Source of the DNA: Leeuwenhoekiella parthenopeia
GTDB lineage: Bacteria; Bacteroidota; Bacteroidia; Flavobacteriales; Flavobacteriaceae
NCBI RefSeq assembly: GCF_020782115.1
Contig: NZ_JAJGMW010000002.1
Coordinates: 124,001 to 188,000, forward strand
Direction: 5' to 3'
Length of the DNA stretch: 64,000 nucleotides
Under the pieces are notes generated by a model. The model saw only the letters and a program-made list of their open reading frames with translations, searched no databases and had not been told where the DNA came from. Every line of letters starts with the position of its first letter. The first letter of the stretch is position 1. Made by a program: the position numbers and the translations under genes. This document shows positions 334 through 53,134 of the stretch, piece after piece.

Positions 334-378
334 GTTGTGTGATATTATTTATTGGTGGCGCTCACTGTGGCGTAGAGG

Positions 379-433
379 ACCACCCCTCTTTCAGCAAAGC
401 TGAAATTTTCCCCTCCTTTTTAAGGAGGGGAGC
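379..433 (+). repeat. Palindromic repeat element, copy A (short form)
   Basis: The order is ACCACCCC, then a perfect hairpin TTTCAGC-AAA-GCTGAAA (389-405), then CCCCTCCTT-TTT-AAGGAGGGG (410-430), then AGC. The same module order recurs at 15413-15498 (inverted) and 15880-15946 with a different but equally perfect first hairpin. It fills most of the gap between tex and metG. The second hairpin is followed on the minus strand by only a short A/T stretch, so it might also act as a terminator for metG. Confidence 0.75.
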
Positions 434-12908: not shown

Positions 12909-15377
12909 CTAAATCTTATCCAGGTAGCGCAGCATATTTTTTATGCGGTCTTCCAGCTTTTCGCTGCTCAGTTTTTCCCGAAGTCGGTCTGTAATAATAG
13001 GGAAGGAGAAGGGCGTGGCTTTTTCGCAGGCTTTGATCACAATTTCCTGTTTTTCTATACGCTCCAGTGCCAGGCGCAAACGACCTTCTTCCAATTGATG
13101 TTCAAAAGTCTCACGATATGCCTGCTGAAACAACAAATTTTCAGGTTCGTAATCTCTAAAAACTTCAAACAATAACTGACTGTTGCTTTGCAGATGCTTG
13201 TTTTTGACGATTTTCCCCGGAAAACCGGTAAACACCATCCCGCTGATGACTGCAATATCACGGAATTTCCGCCGGGCCATTTCGGTGCTGTTCAGGCTTT
13301 TCTGCAGGTCTTCTACTAAAAAACGAGCCGTAAATAAGTCGTTGTCGAGCACCTGTTGCATATCGATTTTTTGGTCTGAAAGTATCTCAAAACCGTAATC
13401 ATTAAATGCGATGCTGAAGGTTATGGGCGAAAGTAAACTGATTCGGTAGGCTAATAAACTTCCTAAAGCCTCGTGTACAAAGCGGCCTTCAAAGGGGTAA
13501 AATATATGGTGAAAACCTTCGCGACTTTTAAAGGTTTCAATCAAAAACTGATCGTTATTGGGAACGATAGATTCCAAACGCTGCCGGTCGAAGATGTCTT
13601 TTAACGCCTGAAGCTCTCGGGTTTGTTGCTCAAAAGGCAAATTAGCCGAATACAATTCTTCGCGCAGCAACTCGCTCATTTGTGCCGAAAGCGTCAACCG
13701 ACCGCCCATCCAACTCACCACTTTTGCCTGCTTTTTGGTTTTAGCCTTTTTCACCAAAACCTGCATGCCTTTGATGCGGTAGAGTTCGAGGTTTTTCCCT
13801 GCAAACGTAAACACATCGCCGGGCGAAAGTTTAGAGATAAACCATTCTTCAACGGTGCCAATGTAGCCGCCTTTTAAATATTTGACCTGCAAGGCGGCAT
13901 CGCCTACAATGGTACCGATCTGCAACCGATGGCGCATCGCGACGGCTTTACTATTTACCTTAAACTTGCCGTCTTCTTCAATTTCAATCTTTTTATACTC
14001 GTCGTAGGCTTGCAGCGACTGACTGCCTTTGGTGATAAAATTCAGAATCCATCGCCATTGCTCTTCGCTCATCGCCTGAAAACAAAAAGTTTGTTTGACT
14101 TCTTTCCAGATTTCTGCCGGGTAAAAACCGTCTGCGACTGCAAGCGTGGTTAAATATTGAATCAAGACATCAAAACTCAGCAGATACGGAATACGGTCTT
14201 CAACCACCTGATTAATCGCTGCCTTCCCCAGCGCCGAAGCTTCTATGAGTTCAATTGCGTGCGTAGGTAAAAAGTAGATTACACTTTCTTTCCCGGGCTG
14301 GTGCCCGCTGCGGCCGGCACGTTGTAAAAAACGGGCAACGCCTTTGGGACCACCAATTTGGATGATGCTCTCTACCGGCGCAAAATCAACACCCAGATCG
14401 AGACTTGAGGTGCAAATCACAGCTTTCAGGCTTTCGTTTCTTATGGCCTGCTCTACCCAGAGCCGGGTTTCTTTATTGATACTGCCATGATGCATAGCGA
14501 GTTCACCGGCATACTCCGGGTGCTTGTACATCATTTTCTGAAACCAGAGTTCGCACTGCGCCCGTGTATTGGTAAACAAAAGTGTGGTTTTGCTGTTGTT
14601 GATGATAGGTACGACTTCTTCCAACAGGTGCAATCCCATATGTCCGCGCCATGGAAATTTCTCCATAGTTTTAGGTATGATGCTTTCAACCTTGTAGGTT
14701 TTTCCCAAATTGGCTTTGACCAAAACCGAATTTTTAAAGGCTTTAGAATCGGGTCCCAGTAGTACTTCGCGTGCCTGATCGAGATTGCCTATGGTTGCTG
14801 AAATTCCCCAGATACGCAGTTTTGGGGCAATGGCTTTAAGCCGGGAGAGTCCGAGTTCGGTTTGTACCCCGCGTTTGCTGCCCAGGAGTTCGTGCCATTC
14901 GTCAATCACGATAGCCGTACAATTCTTAAAAACTTTCTTATAGTCTTTGCTCGTCAGCAAAAGCTGAAGACTTTCGGGCGTGGTGATGAGCAGATCGGGC
15001 ATTTTGCGTTTTTGCTTTGCCCGTTCCGCCTGAGGCGTGTCACCGGTGCGTATACCTACGGTTAGTTGGGTTTCCAAACCATCTGCAAAACGCGCTGCCG
15101 CCTGCGCAATTTCCACTGAAAGCGCTCGTAAAGGCGTAATCCAGATCGCTTTAAGTCCCGGTTTGTGTTTGGTTTTATAATCAGGATTGTTTTTGATGTA
15201 ATCTAAAACAAATGCTACCCAAAGGGCATAGGTTTTCCCGCTTCCTGTAGGCGCGTTGAGCAGACCGTTTTTACCTTCCAAAAAAGCCCCCCAGGTCTCT
15301 TCCTGAAATGCAAAGGGTTTCCATCCCTGATTTTTAAACCAGGATTGCGCGAGTTTATGGAGTTGGTTTTTTGTCAT
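12909..15377 (-). CDS. Ligase-associated DNA damage response DExH helicase (Lhr-core type)
   Basis: An 822-residue superfamily 2 helicase. Walker A is APTGSGKT (about 42-49), then TPLRAL, TTPESL, the DExH box DEWHELLG, SATIGN, TSSLDLGVDF and QRAGRSGH. The C-terminal half carries the winged-helix and Lhr-core extension (EEWFISKLSPGDVFTFAGKNLEL). Lhr-core enzymes are ATP-driven 3'-5' DNA translocases. ATG 15377 (MTKNQLHKLAQSW) is preferred; the upstream ATG at 15413 sits in the inverted repeat region and adds 12 residues without homology. It is downstream of the ligase gene, from which it is separated by the DUF559 insertion. Confidence 0.9.
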   Translation of the reverse strand: MTKNQLHKLAQSWFKNQGWKPFAFQEETWGAFLEGKNGLLNAPTGSGKTYALWVAFVLDYIKNNPDYKTKHKPGLKAIWITPLRALSVEIAQAAARFADGLETQLTVGIRTGDTPQAERAKQKRKMPDLLITTPESLQLLLTSKDYKKVFKNCTAIVIDEWHELLGSKRGVQTELGLSRLKAIAPKLRIWGISATIGNLDQAREVLLGPDSKAFKNSVLVKANLGKTYKVESIIPKTMEKFPWRGHMGLHLLEEVVPIINNSKTTLLFTNTRAQCELWFQKMMYKHPEYAGELAMHHGSINKETRLWVEQAIRNESLKAVICTSSLDLGVDFAPVESIIQIGGPKGVARFLQRAGRSGHQPGKESVIYFLPTHAIELIEASALGKAAINQVVEDRIPYLLSFDVLIQYLTTLAVADGFYPAEIWKEVKQTFCFQAMSEEQWRWILNFITKGSQSLQAYDEYKKIEIEEDGKFKVNSKAVAMRHRLQIGTIVGDAALQVKYLKGGYIGTVEEWFISKLSPGDVFTFAGKNLELYRIKGMQVLVKKAKTKKQAKVVSWMGGRLTLSAQMSELLREELYSANLPFEQQTRELQALKDIFDRQRLESIVPNNDQFLIETFKSREGFHHIFYPFEGRFVHEALGSLLAYRISLLSPITFSIAFNDYGFEILSDQKIDMQQVLDNDLFTARFLVEDLQKSLNSTEMARRKFRDIAVISGMVFTGFPGKIVKNKHLQSNSQLLFEVFRDYEPENLLFQQAYRETFEHQLEEGRLRLALERIEKQEIVIKACEKATPFSFPIITDRLREKLSSEKLEDRIKNMLRYLDKI

Positions 15378-15412
15378 AAGGGGCACGAACCCGTCCGTTT
15401 TTGCCTTCGACA

Positions 15413-15498
15413 AACCACCTTCCCTTACTAAGGGAAGGAGCTTATAGCTCCCCTCTTAGTATAGGAGGGGTGTCCCGATAAATCGGGACGGGGTGGTT
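15413..15498 (-). repeat. Palindromic repeat element, copy B (long form, inverted)
   Basis: An 86-base unit bounded by AACCACC (15413-15419) and GGTGGTT (15492-15498) and packed with hairpins: CCTTCCCTTA-C-TAAGGGAAGG (15418-15438), GAGCT-TAT-AGCTC (15438-15450), CCCCTC..GAGGGG (15450-15470) and GTCCCGAT-AA-ATCGGGAC (15472-15489). Read on the minus strand it has the module order of copies A and C plus an extra final hairpin. Its edge supplies the TGA stop of the DUF559 gene. Confidence 0.85.
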
Positions 15499-15863
15499 CA
15501 CTTCTTTTTAAAATTATCTTCAATCTCTTTCAATACACTGGGTAAAAAGTCAAAAACCATTTTATTCTCAAAACGTATGACATTAAAGCCCAGTTCATTT
15601 AATTTTTCAGTTCTGTAGGCATCATATTCAGCAACATCGGGATTTTGATGATACTGGCCATCCAATTCTACAATCAGTTTTTCTGAAGGACAGTAAAAGT
15701 CAACAATAAAGTAGGTAATGCTGTGTTGTCTTCTGAACTTTCTACCCGCCAGTTGAGATCTTTGTAAGTGTCTCCATAAAAAAGCTTCGGCAGGAGTTAG
15801 GTGTGATCGTAAATACTTTCTTCTGCTCTCCAGTATTTTTAAGTTGTGTATTTGTTTTTTCAT
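15498..15863 (-). CDS. DUF559 / endonuclease domain-containing protein (Vsr-like PD-(D/E)XK fold)
   Basis: A 121-residue protein. Visible motifs are RSHLTPAEAFLWRHL at the N-terminus, GRKFRRQHSI, FIVDFYCPSEKLIVELDGQYH with the D-x(n)-E-x-D nuclease core, and the C-terminal FNVIRFEN. The family is related to very-short-patch (Vsr) endonucleases; no activity has been firmly assigned. It lies in the gap between the ligase and helicase genes, bracketed by perfect 9-base inverted repeats GGGGTGGTT (15490-15498) and AACCACCCC (15880-15888) belonging to repeat copies B and C. This suggests it arrived as a cassette and is not an original member of the repair operon. Confidence 0.88.
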   Translation of the reverse strand: MKKQIHNLKILESRRKYLRSHLTPAEAFLWRHLQRSQLAGRKFRRQHSITYFIVDFYCPSEKLIVELDGQYHQNPDVAEYDAYRTEKLNELGFNVIRFENKMVFDFLPSVLKEIEDNFKKK

Positions 15864-15879
15864 AAACCAGCGGGATTAT

Positions 15880-15946
15880 AACCACCCCAATTTTGACAGG
15901 TCAAAATTTTCCCCTCCTTTTCTAATGAGGGGAGCTTTTTAAAGCT
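15880..15946 (+). repeat. Palindromic repeat element, copy C
   Basis: AACCACCCC, a perfect hairpin AATTTTGAC-AG-GTCAAAATT (15889-15908), CCCCTC..GAGGGG (15911-15932) and AGCTTT-TT-AAAGCT (15933-15946). It lies 16 bases upstream of the DUF559 start codon, in opposite orientation to copy B. Confidence 0.85.
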
Positions 15947-16011: not shown

Positions 16012-17622
16012 TCAGCCGGCTTTGCCCGGCTTCGGAATCAATTGCTTGAGGTCTTCTAAAGTGTTGGCATCTTCAATCTTTTTGTCTTTACGCCAACGCA
16101 GCATACGCGGGAAACGGGTGGCGACACCGCTTTTGTGGCGCTTGCTGAGGGCGATTCCCTCGAAGGCAATTTCAAAAACGTGATGCGGTGTCACGCTGCG
16201 TACAGGGCCAAAGCGCTCCAATGTATTCTTCTTGATCCAGGCGTCCAGACTGCGAAACTCGGCATCGGTAAGGCCGGAGTAGGCTTTGGCGAAAGTGACG
16301 AGCTCTTCCTTGTTTTCATCCCAAAGTCCAAATGTATAATCGGTAAACAGATTGCTACGGCGGCCGTGACCGCGCATCGCGTAGGTGAGCACCGCGTCAA
16401 TAGTGAGCGGGTCAACCTTCCATTTCCACCAGTCGCCTTTTTTACGACCTACCAGATAGGGCGAATCTTTCCGCTTGAGCATCAAACCTTCAGACATCAC
16501 CTCGCGGCTGCGTTCACGTTCTACGGCGGCCTCTTCCCAATTTGAAAACTCGATGGTTTCAGAAAGGTGTAGCGGTAACTCTTCGGTTTTAACCTGAGTA
16601 TATAATTCTTCTAATAATTTCCGCCTTTCGGCGAAAGCCAGATCGCGAATGTCTTTGCCTTCCCATTCCAGAATATCGTAGGCTTTGAGAATCACGGGTG
16701 TTTTTTTCAGTTGGGCTTTGGTAATATTTTTACGCCCGATGCGGGTTTGTAAATCGTTAAACGTACCAATCACCCCTTTTTTAAACGGAAGGATTTCACC
16801 ATCAAGCACCGTCCCATTTGGGATAGCCTCCACGAAGGCTTCAAACTCGGGGTACTTATCGGTTACCAGTTCTTCACCTCGGCTCCAGACAAACAGCTCG
16901 TCTTCGCGAATGATGACCTGTGAGCGGATGCCGTCCCACTTATGCTCGGCAAACCAATCGTTTACATCGCCCAAATCTTCCGGAGTGTCCTCAATCGCAT
17001 AGGCCAGATAAAAGGGGTAGGGCTTGCTGAGGTAATCGGCTTTATTTTCTTCTAAAATGAGTTTTTGAAAACTGATTGTTTTGGGATCCCAATCGCCCAT
17101 CAGTTTATAGGCCAGCACGTCAACATCAATATCTGTAGCCTTTGCCAGCGCACGGGTCATTAATTTCTGACTTACGCCAATGCGAAAACTACCGGTGATG
17201 AGTTTACTGAATACAAAACGCTCGTAATAATTGAGGCGCGTCCAGTTTTCGTGCAGGTATTCGCGTTTTTCGTCTTCGGGCTTTTTTTTGAGGGCGATAA
17301 TTTCTTCACAAAACTGCGTGAGGCTTTTATCGGTATGCTCTTCGGAAGCGGGAATAATCAGCGCAATGGTTTCTGCCAGATCGCCTACAATGTGATAGCT
17401 TTCTTCAAACAGCCACAAGGGAATCTGAGCCAGTTCGGTAGCCCAGGTTCTTAATAAGGTAGTATTGACCGGCCGAGGCGGACGGCGGTGCGACAAAATC
17501 GCAATCGTCCAGACCTTGTCTTTGGGAGGCGCTTCGCGAAAGTATTGCGTAAGCGCATCAACCTTGACGTTGGTCTTGTTGGTACTGTCTATTTTACGTA
17601 TCAGTTCTGCAAAATCCCTCAT
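16012..17622 (-). CDS. ATP-dependent DNA ligase (ligase-associated repair cluster)
   Basis: A 536-residue ATP-dependent DNA ligase, sealing nicks through an enzyme-AMP intermediate. The nucleotidyl-transferase motif I is EHKWDGIR (K-x-D-G with the adenylated Lys, about 220), motif III is FVWSRGEELVTDKYPE, motif IV VLDGEIL, motif V EGLMLKR, and VGRKKGDWWKWKVD follows. An N-terminal DNA-binding domain (about 1-190) and a C-terminal OB-fold are present. ATG 17622 (MRDFAELIRKID) is chosen over 17643. The neighbours on the same strand are a beta-lactamase-fold exonuclease upstream and, beyond the DUF559 insertion, an Lhr helicase. This is the four-enzyme cluster known in many bacteria. Confidence 0.93.
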   Translation of the reverse strand: MRDFAELIRKIDSTNKTNVKVDALTQYFREAPPKDKVWTIAILSHRRPPRPVNTTLLRTWATELAQIPLWLFEESYHIVGDLAETIALIIPASEEHTDKSLTQFCEEIIALKKKPEDEKREYLHENWTRLNYYERFVFSKLITGSFRIGVSQKLMTRALAKATDIDVDVLAYKLMGDWDPKTISFQKLILEENKADYLSKPYPFYLAYAIEDTPEDLGDVNDWFAEHKWDGIRSQVIIREDELFVWSRGEELVTDKYPEFEAFVEAIPNGTVLDGEILPFKKGVIGTFNDLQTRIGRKNITKAQLKKTPVILKAYDILEWEGKDIRDLAFAERRKLLEELYTQVKTEELPLHLSETIEFSNWEEAAVERERSREVMSEGLMLKRKDSPYLVGRKKGDWWKWKVDPLTIDAVLTYAMRGHGRRSNLFTDYTFGLWDENKEELVTFAKAYSGLTDAEFRSLDAWIKKNTLERFGPVRSVTPHHVFEIAFEGIALSKRHKSGVATRFPRMLRWRKDKKIEDANTLEDLKQLIPKPGKAG

Positions 17623-17673
17623 CCCTCTCTGTCCTTCGGACATCTCTCCCCAAGGGAGAGAATATCTTTATAT

Positions 17674-18723: not shown

Positions 18724-19000
18724 CGAGATTTAACAGATTTAGGACTTTTCCAAATTGAAAATTTCAGAGAAGACCTTTTGCTTATGACCTATTGGTTATG
18801 CTTAAAATTACAAAGGGTGATAGAATGTGGTTGGGTGATTAAGAAAACATTAGCTTCGGTACAATTTTTTGGCAGAGCCAAAAAATCACTCAGCTATCTT
18901 TTGGAAGTAAGTAGTCTCAGTGGGCAGTCCTCCGAATTTGAGATTCAATGTTGAAAACTTAAAGTTTGGAAGTGATACGGGGAATTTCTTTTTTCTTAAA

Positions 19001-19056
19001 CGCTTCCACGCTTCCACGCTTCCACGCTTCCACGCTTCCACGCTTCCACGCTTCCA
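19001..19056. repeat. Tandem repeat, seven perfect copies of CGCTTCCA
   Basis: Seven head-to-tail copies of an 8-base unit without any mismatch, followed by CCGC. Such perfect short arrays are prone to slippage and can vary between strains. Confidence 0.95.
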
Positions 19057-19164
19057 CCGCAAACCGTAAACGGAAAACAAAAAACCTACTCTTTACTGAA
19101 AACTGCCACTGCCCACTAATTAGTATTATTACTAACTAACAACTGCCACTGCCACTGCTTACTG

Positions 19165-52741: not shown

Positions 52742-53134
52742 ATGGCAACTGTAAAGCGATTTGAAGATTTACAAATTTGGCAGGAAGCTCGGGTTTTAGC
52801 AAAAGAAATTGTTTCAATTGTCCAAACTACCGGCCTTAAGGAAAATTACAAGTTGAGAGATCAGATTGTAGGTTCTTCAGGAAGTATTATGGACAACATA
52901 GCAGAAGGTTTTGAGAGAAATGGTAATTTGGAATTCAGACAATTTCTATCTGTTGCAAAAGCTTCCGCAGGTGAAACAAGATCTCAGTTGTATCGCGTTT
53001 TTGACTGGCAATACATTGAGGAACAAGAATTAAATAGATTGACATTAAAGTGTGAATCCTTGAGTAAGCAAATAGCTGGATTCATTGCTTATCTAAACAA
53101 ATCAGAACTCAAAGGGACTAAATTTCAGAGCTAA
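52742..53134 (+). CDS. Four-helix bundle protein (23S rRNA intervening-sequence type)
   Basis: A 130-residue protein of the four-helix-bundle (S23/IVS) family: FEDLQIWQEARVLAKEI, LRDQIVGSSGSIMDNIAEGFER (the family hallmark), EFRQFLSVAKASAGETRSQLYR. Relatives are encoded in intervening sequences of 23S rRNA genes and in many free-standing loci; function unknown. It is inserted between sufC and sufD and is bordered on both sides by TTCAAAATTT / AAATTTTGAA-type repeats. ATG 52742 is used; GTG 52739 is adjacent. Confidence 0.85.
   Translation: MATVKRFEDLQIWQEARVLAKEIVSIVQTTGLKENYKLRDQIVGSSGSIMDNIAEGFERNGNLEFRQFLSVAKASAGETRSQLYRVFDWQYIEEQELNRLTLKCESLSKQIAGFIAYLNKSELKGTKFQS

Follow-up and report, generated by a model that had tools for sequence, protein, structure and literature searches.

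A probable mobile cassette of wide distribution: a DUF559 nuclease gene between inverted triplex-motif repeats in Leeuwenhoekiella parthenopeia

The sequence analysed here, hereafter the window, is a stretch of 64,000 nucleotides from contig NZ_JAJGMW010000002.1 of Leeuwenhoekiella parthenopeia. Within it, a gene for a DUF559 protein splits an operon formed by an ATP-dependent DNA ligase and an Lhr-type helicase, and all three genes are co-directional. Repeats were located by a sequence scan for a hairpin accompanied by a mirror tail, and the label 'triplex' in the following list denotes a predicted motif.

378-433, minus strand: solo type-a triplex repeat without a nuclease gene; tail CCACCCC, a second hairpin and a hairpin at 409-431
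12909-15413, minus strand: Lhr-type helicase gene (PF19306, PF08494), the host gene downstream of the DUF559 gene
15386-15440, minus strand: left outer triplex repeat, type b; hairpin 15418-15438, tail ACCCGTCC (given on the plus strand) at 15389-15396
15446-15498, plus strand: left inner triplex repeat, type a; hairpin 15450-15470, second hairpin 15472-15489, tail GGGGTGGTT at 15490-15498
15498-15863, minus strand: DUF559 (Vsr/EDxHD-fold) nuclease gene, 121 aa (PF04480, E=5.2e-32)
15880-15946, minus strand: right triplex repeat, type a, inverted; tail AACCACCCC at 15880-15888, second hairpin 15889-15908, main hairpin 15910-15933
16012-17643, minus strand: ATP-dependent DNA ligase gene (PF01068), the host gene upstream of the DUF559 gene
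17623-17661, minus strand: solo triplex-like repeat over the start of the listed ligase ORF

A sequence-only reading of this DNA had placed the 121-residue gene between perfect 9-base inverted repeats belonging to longer hairpin-rich elements, the whole unit interrupting a co-directional ligase-helicase operon, and this layout was confirmed. The two 9-mers each occur once on the plus strand of the window, the left one having one base in common with the DUF559 stop codon, and perfect hairpins adjoin both; those at the locus lie at 15418-15438, 15472-15489, 15889-15908 and 15910-15933. In the left outer repeat the mirror rule described below fits at all G positions, with one arm-A opposite C. 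The overlap of the repeat at 17623-17661 with the start of the ligase ORF indicates that the true ligase start may be a later codon. Elsewhere in the window, a short tandem repeat of TTCCACGC units was seen at about 19000-19060, in a stretch without a long ORF, and a four-helix gene (23S rRNA IVP family, PF05635) at 52763-53077; the genome has eight such matches.

As proof of a cassette, the 9 bp inverted repeats were ruled out, being matched by 4% of shuffles. An exact inverted match of at least 9 bp between the flanks was reached in 209 of 5000 dinucleotide shuffles and in 61 of 1714 identically arranged segments of the window; by themselves, therefore, the 9-mers depart only slightly from chance. 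Over the entire flanks the locus had an inverted score of 17, above nearly all ORFs of the same genome, of which 0/337 reached 18 and 0.6% reached 15. The case for a cassette is made by comparison among loci and genomes and not by the 9 bp repeats.

No separate extended DNA-binding region was found in the 121-residue protein, for which Pfam gave only DUF559 plus a sub-threshold MTES_1575 match that overlaps it. Residues E26, D55 and E66 were invariant in 115 of 115 aligned DUF559 relatives and are the presumed active site, as inferred from the family, while D68 and H72 were kept in 113. An AlphaFold2 model (mean pLDDT 91) was matched by Foldseek to 3hrl (E 6.8e-8), to the catalytic domain of I-Bth0305I, 3r3p (E 3.2e-4; profile E 2.8e-5), and weakly to Vsr, 1vsr (E 0.028). 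A homologous catalytic domain with conserved acidic residues, as in EDxHD/Vsr-like homing endonucleases, is present. In the accessible text of earlier reports, a DUF559 protein has been called Vsr-like and Caulobacter VsrA proposed as a mismatch nuclease (PMC12907096), and a DUF559 gene in a cyanobacterial intein context has been placed in the EDxHD homing family (PMC9403480). For the present protein, the model supports the relation to Vsr only weakly and as similarity of fold; T:G mismatch nicking has not been shown. A role as a defence system was rejected, the sole PADLOC match being a weak one to mREase_II (E 3.3e-4, 18 bits), as was a role as phage cargo, matches being present in merely 3 of 50,697 phage records.

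The repeats share a common build. The hairpin has a 5' arm rich in C and a 3' arm rich in G; a few bases further on, or beyond a second hairpin, comes a tail of about 6-8 nt. This tail mirrors the purine arm, except that T may stand in place of A. Among the hairpins flanking 118 DUF559 sites and 47 named loci, the mirror rule was met at all G positions in 300 of 645 hairpin-orientations, compared with 82 for a direct tail and 53-84 for shuffled arms; the ceiling is about 50% because each hairpin was tried in both orientations. The tail base opposite arm-A was A in 388 cases, T in 327, C in 22 and G in 33, a pattern that corresponds, as far as sequence can tell, to the purine-motif third-strand rule (G·GC, A·AT, T·AT). 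The same scan applied to 464 kb of the same genome (38 tests) gave 16 mirror, 6 direct and 2 shuffled matches. For a pyrimidine parallel third strand the values were 29% mirror, 14% direct, 5% on the 3' side and 2% shuffled of 626; this arrangement was rejected in favour of the purine motif because T occurs opposite arm-A. Single matches in G-rich DNA need care, since short G-runs meet the mirror rule more easily.

Intrastrand triplex motifs (ITxF/TM-ECO) were published in 2015 by Holder et al. and occur in many bacteria; the E. coli consensus is CCCTCNCCC N3-6 GGGNGAGGG N3 GGGNGAGGG, and the accessible text reports that the E. coli motif forms a triplex, links such motifs to instability and states that its authors at no time encountered mobility activities near those sites (PMC4666352). 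The repeats described here are like these in their hairpin and third-strand tail, the purine-motif rule and the inverted A+B pairs, and are classed as intrastrand triplex motifs by sequence, physical triplex formation not having been shown for them. They differ in having a DUF559 nuclease as a frequent neighbour, where no mobility activities were reported, and in lying also inside coding genes, the E. coli copies being described as intergenic only, both points being limited to the available parts of that account (PMC4666352). As a separate observation, in G005 (C38:45600-46600, L318) a triplex repeat together with the 3' end of a trp-operon gene stands in about three tandem copies, as if the repeat promotes duplication of adjoining host DNA.

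The relation of the repeats to DUF559 genes extends well beyond the window. Across the genus, family and order, a triplex motif lay within 200 bp of 105 of 118 DUF559 sites, on both sides at 58 and on neither at 13. Hairpins with a stem of at least 7 were present on both sides within 150 bp at 58/118 of these sites, compared with 5/337 ORFs of the genome itself. By the same 200 bp measure a motif accompanied 27/29 class-wide DUF559 loci, 26/26 named flavobacterial loci, 19/21 more distant named loci and 7/10 loci of a plasmid collection. In the controls it was found at 19 of 335 own-genome ORFs (2 on both sides) and in 11 of 114 windows taken 700-900 bp away within the DUF559 loci (0 on both sides). 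The cassettes on a Deinococcus plasmid, between paaD and paaZ, and on a Sphingomonas plasmid, between sufB and sufC, have clear inverted motifs. Genes resembling polysaccharide-biosynthesis genes, judged by eye, adjoin eight of the stand-alone cassettes (L102, L106, L113, L115, L128, L131, L132 and L134).

Several limits apply to these counts. The DUF559 loci were sampled from among the matches listed, and the further samples partly overlap the 118 sites (e.g. L248 and L074). By title, the 21 distant loci (L251-L271) comprise five from Bacteroidota and 16 from other phyla. The 118 sites leave out profile matches with E above 1e-12 (L025 and one fragment of L090), three loci without a match (L027-L029), one that is the same gene as another (L056, L092) and the second fragments of broken copies. 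Some of the controls are mostly coding DNA, and relatedness among genomes was only partly controlled.

The repeat type also tracked the nuclease. Over 61 stand-alone sites, after removal of pairs sharing a recognised locus, the number of common repeat 7-mers rose with DUF559 identity (r 0.40; 0/2000 permutations). For genomes with more than one DUF559 gene, the repeats of a gene were closer in 44 of 54 tests to those of its nearest DUF559 relatives, taken from different sites and different genomes, than to those of its genome-mates, and in 10 less close; an earlier within-genome contrast, in which same-site pairs were kept, stood at 46 to 7. These comparisons indicate that repeat type follows nuclease clade more than genome, kinship being only partly controlled. 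Such tracking bears on the possibility that repeats and DUF559 genes merely gather in permissive, unstable spots without a functional link. The LeuRS linker, which also collects unrelated short repeats, and the reported connection of triplex motifs with instability in E. coli, as given in the accessible portion of that paper (PMC4666352), would fit such passive co-location. However, two other small-gene families, the GxxExxY nucleases (PF13366) and the four-helix proteins (PF05635), had a triplex motif within 200 bp in 0/24 and 0/30 cases respectively, and neither the agreement of repeat type with nuclease clade nor the invariance of the conserved acidic residues is expected of it; we regard it as very unlikely. 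No literature link of DUF559 to triplex repeats was found in the open-licence papers, as far as their available text extends.

Presence and absence at the ligase-Lhr junction were compared among 13 Leeuwenhoekiella genomes, all of which have the ligase. The DUF559 gene follows the ligase in seven (G000, G003, G004, G005, G007, G009 and G011) and is missing in five (G001, G002, G006, G008 and G010); the junction of G012 was unreadable, leaving 12 readable genomes. Ligase and helicase nearly abut in G010, G001 and G008. An inverted pair of similar repeats without a gene occupies the junction in G006, which has a related DUF559 gene with similar repeats elsewhere (L086). The sequence-only reading would have been refuted by a gene standing without exception between ligase and helicase, or by DUF559 genes elsewhere lacking such repeats; the empty sites in 5 of 12 genomes and the motif counts above, against none in either control family, spared it on both points.

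The repeats at this locus vary with the genome. As read by eye, the stem and tail of the left repeat change together, with CCCCTCC/GGAGGGG and GGGGTGG in G000, G003 and G009 (one mismatch in the G000 stem) and CTCCTCC/GGAGGAG and GAGGTGG in G004, G005, G007 and G011. Beyond the genus set, ligase and Lhr neighbours were found at 11 of 31 named flavobacterial DUF559 loci (five Leeuwenhoekiella, some from the same genomes as the 13-genome set, one Mesonia, three Aequorivita and two Salegentibacter) and in four more genera (L016, L105, L120 and L136). The rows of these further genera occupy about three places in the DUF559 tree, with modest support (84-91).

The recurrence of DUF559 between ligase and Lhr in several genera, together with the proposal that Caulobacter VsrA is a mismatch nuclease (PMC12907096, of which only part was available), favours a host repair function, in which a Vsr-like nuclease near triplex repeats resolves structures or mismatches, or belongs to the ligase-Lhr repair operon. 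Yet only 11 of the grouped stand-alone sites have both ligase and Lhr, a twelfth having Lhr alone, the gene is missing from the junction in nearly half of the readable genus genomes, and DUF559 also occurs as in-frame inserts inside metabolic enzymes. Host repair is accordingly held to be quite unlikely.

These inserts were identified by Pfam inside MetH, LeuRS, RecG, RecJ, acetyl-CoA synthetase and HsdR, in frame, and DUF559 was also found fused to HisD and to HemD; in one such scan, 2 of the 32 domain matches were spurious second matches. The second DUF559 of the L. parthenopeia genome itself lies in frame within MetH. Two insertion sites were found in LeuRS and three in MetH, and one MetH (L092) holds two sister copies at two sites, 87.5% identical in amino acids and 81% in nucleotides. 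In a LeuRS survey of 45 relatives, 43 with a match, the domain was present at 9 of 30 loci (one decayed, L174) and missing at 21. Inserts of the repeat alone also exist: one lies in frame in the LeuRS of L187, and another (L059) occupies MetH site 2, where L092 has a full cassette.

The joints of the cassettes inside genes read as short Pro/Gly/Ser-rich linkers without a stop, and LeuRS, MetH and other hosts may tolerate the insert because the repeats read as such stop-free linkers. Ten proteins with DUF559 inside or fused to them gave no Hint family at an E of 1e-8 or better, and there were no Rfam gathering matches in 10 loci; there is thus no sign of splicing, and a known structured RNA was likewise set aside for want of an Rfam match. 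Decayed DUF559 domains that have lost the conserved residues are still in frame in LeuRS at L174 and L099, and unrelated short in-frame repeats (NSEFKI, VTSSAVEK etc.) were seen in the LeuRS linker at L161, L165, L167 and L181 and in the MetH linker at L195. Rickettsia palindromic elements are palindromic repeats inserted in frame in protein genes. To our knowledge they carry no nuclease gene; the cassettes resemble them in these features, as in-frame palindromic inserts, here with a nuclease gene.

The history of the inserts was examined with a tree of 115 DUF559 domains, from which the broken copies L026, L090 and L106 were left out. Each of the LeuRS (26 rows), HemD (12), MetH (8) and RecG (4) groups fell on one side of a branch, with supports of 30, 100, 88 and 99 respectively; L082, labelled apart on the tree, proved to be MetH too. 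The labels changed 6 times, compared with a shuffled mean of 48. Presence is patchy: between G000 and G004, which are sister species, differences were seen at LeuRS, MetH and HemD and at a fourth site. The LeuRS inserts of G002 and G009 were 53-54% identical to those of G001, G004, G005 and G008, which were 89-100% identical among themselves, and 55-57% identical to that of G006. Ligase-Lhr copies were 88-98% identical among G000, G003, G004, G005 and G009 and 67-76% in any pair that included G007 or G011, and the host LeuRS of insert-bearing genomes was 85-98% identical to that of G002 over 317 aa. Forcing the genus LeuRS inserts together cost 44.8 log-likelihood units, with p-AU 0.078 and 0 of 200 bootstrap trees. 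The data are against monophyly of the genus LeuRS inserts in a way that is suggestive, not conclusive, as it was not rejected at 0.05.

Site-specific clades with few label changes and patchy presence among sister species are also what would be seen if an EDxHD-like DUF559 cut an empty host allele, namely the LeuRS linker, the MetH linker or the ligase-Lhr junction, and was copied in by repair, the repeats merely marking the ends or easing tolerance. Such homing on host sequence draws further support from the homology to the I-Bth0305I catalytic domain and from the low identity of the G002 and G009 LeuRS inserts (the 53-54% above), set against 88-91% for the ligase-Lhr copies of G009, G004 and G005 and a host LeuRS 89-94% identical to that of G002. 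It does not account, however, for the match between repeat type and nuclease at unrelated loci or for the existence of solo repeats; there is no extra DNA-binding domain in the 121 residues, and the failure to reject monophyly weakens the insert comparison. Homing is therefore judged unlikely, though not to be dismissed. With EDxHD homing endonucleases such as I-Bth0305I the cassette shares the homologous catalytic domain, site specificity and patchy distribution, and it differs in being repeat-bounded, with no intron or intein found and no long DNA-binding region, as far as the accessible description of those enzymes allows comparison (PMC3943268).

Repeats without a nuclease gene also exist, some of them at sites that elsewhere have a cassette. 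Inverted pairs of about 150 bp with cassette-like inner boundaries were found at L301-L303, L305-L308 (G011) and L310-L311 (G010), the L311 pair looking truncated; all of these but L311, and further gene-less pairs at L042 and L314, were read by eye. Hairpins of the form CCCCTCC-N2-14-GGAGGGG numbered 1-16 per genus genome, and genomes without DUF559 at the ligase-Lhr junction also have some of them; a high-copy REPIN population was not found in the genus by a search for this form. No clean target-site duplication was found at the cassettes. Long direct repeats around 40 of the 118 sites remain unexplained and may be array expansion.

The REP/BIME-like layout raises the possibility that an HUH (IS200/RAYT) transposase moves the repeats in trans, with DUF559 as cargo, and Y1_Tnp was indeed detected in 7 of 13 genus genomes. 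It was not found in the other 6, among them G011, the genome richest in exact type-a hairpins, and by eye no such repeats lay at the flanks of the four best Y1 genes. An HUH transposase as the driver is unsupported on both counts and is, in our estimation, barely credible.

A further member of the family is YcjD of E. coli, which shares 40% identity with the protein of the window, carries a DUF559 annotation and is accepted by the NCBIfam DUF559 model; the control panel of the DUF559 search gave matches in Caulobacter and Corynebacterium and none in E. coli despite this annotation. The gene lies between sapF and fabI and is present in 3364 of 5426 complete E. coli genomes at a coverage of at least 80%. 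In K-12 (L335, NC_000913 1351407-1351760) a consensus motif with 0 mismatches starts 168 bases past the ycjD stop, and the last ycjD codons and stop look like the remnant of a triplex motif. In KE47 (L326) a perfect motif contains the last ycjD codons and stop and is followed by a second perfect motif. By hand estimate, 23 motifs in 4.64 Mb give a probability of about 0.3% that any particular gene has one no more than 300 bp away. At least one strain (row H66) that matches nothing else of the ycjD region still matches the motif. YcjD is a homologue of the window protein with polymorphic presence, and it differs in having triplex motifs on one side of its gene only, the upstream hairpin not being a triplex motif. 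In the accessible parts of earlier work, a profile for YcjD detects Vsr (PMC1189080) and ycjD was found where other lineages have an efflux operon (PMC12817139).

Taken together, we consider it probable, with appreciable doubt remaining, that the DUF559 gene and its flanking inverted repeats form one mobile nuclease-repeat cassette. By analogy, the best reading is a cassette that would be REPtron-like in layout, with a Vsr/EDxHD-fold enzyme in place of the HUH transposase. Like REPtrons and REPIN-RAYT systems, as described in the accessible part of PMC8266576, it has inverted short palindromes around a DNA-cutting enzyme and gene-less pairs elsewhere. Unlike them, it has a PD-(D/E)XK/Vsr-fold enzyme where TnpAREP/RAYT is of the HUH type, a low copy number and in-frame insertion, and a mirror tail where REPtrons have a conserved GTAG tetranucleotide 5' of the hairpin, no GTAG standing next to the hairpins of the window (PMC8266576, same limitation). 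Of two REPtron criteria, inverse-orientation repeat pairing is met at the window flanks and in the gene-less pairs, and an HUH Y1 transposase gene flanked by repeats is not, DUF559 standing there instead.

Under this cassette reading, the nuclease would recognise its cognate folded repeat and nick or cut there, and repair or replication restart would then copy the cassette, or a gene-less repeat pair, into another site that bears repeats or is permissive. The non-autonomous partners, corresponding to the REPs of a RAYT, would be the solo repeats and repeat pairs, and at the window locus the mobile unit would have come to lie between ligase and Lhr. The association of DUF559 with triplex repeats, the tracking of repeat type, the turnover of presence and absence and the in-frame insertion were all observed; that the nuclease acts on the repeats and thereby moves them is inferred, as no cleavage, binding or transposition has been seen. 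The sequence-only reading had suggested a mobile or repeat-linked cassette resembling those of REP transposases but with a Vsr-like nuclease, and had called the functional link an inference. The empty sites and the 105/118 association support the former suggestion, and on the latter we agree, since nuclease-driven mobility remains an inference. The triplex nature of the hairpins, the in-frame cassettes inside genes and the membership of E. coli YcjD go beyond that reading. A broader proposal, which we put forward tentatively as possible rather than probable, is that the triplex repeats of Bacteroidota, Cyanobacteria, Deinococcota and Proteobacteria, TM-ECO included, are non-autonomous members of a new DUF559-driven mobile class, that DUF559 recognises the triplex or folded hairpin, and that its cassettes enter essential genes in frame with no splicing involved, their repeats acting both as ends and as linkers that are translated.

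The association would supply a candidate enzyme for a triplex repeat family described as having none. With a frequent nuclease partner, present even in K-12 as ycjD, the making, spread and use of these repeats become testable at the bench in a laboratory strain, and recognition of triplex DNA, if the nuclease has it, would be an unusual specificity. An in-frame and apparently intact nuclease in LeuRS, MetH, RecG, RecJ and other proteins, without signs of splicing, shows a way for mobile genes to reside inside essential enzymes, and a testable role is given to a large family still named a domain of unknown function. The unit in the window looks like a single representative of a mobile cassette of wide distribution, which enters between and even inside essential bacterial genes.
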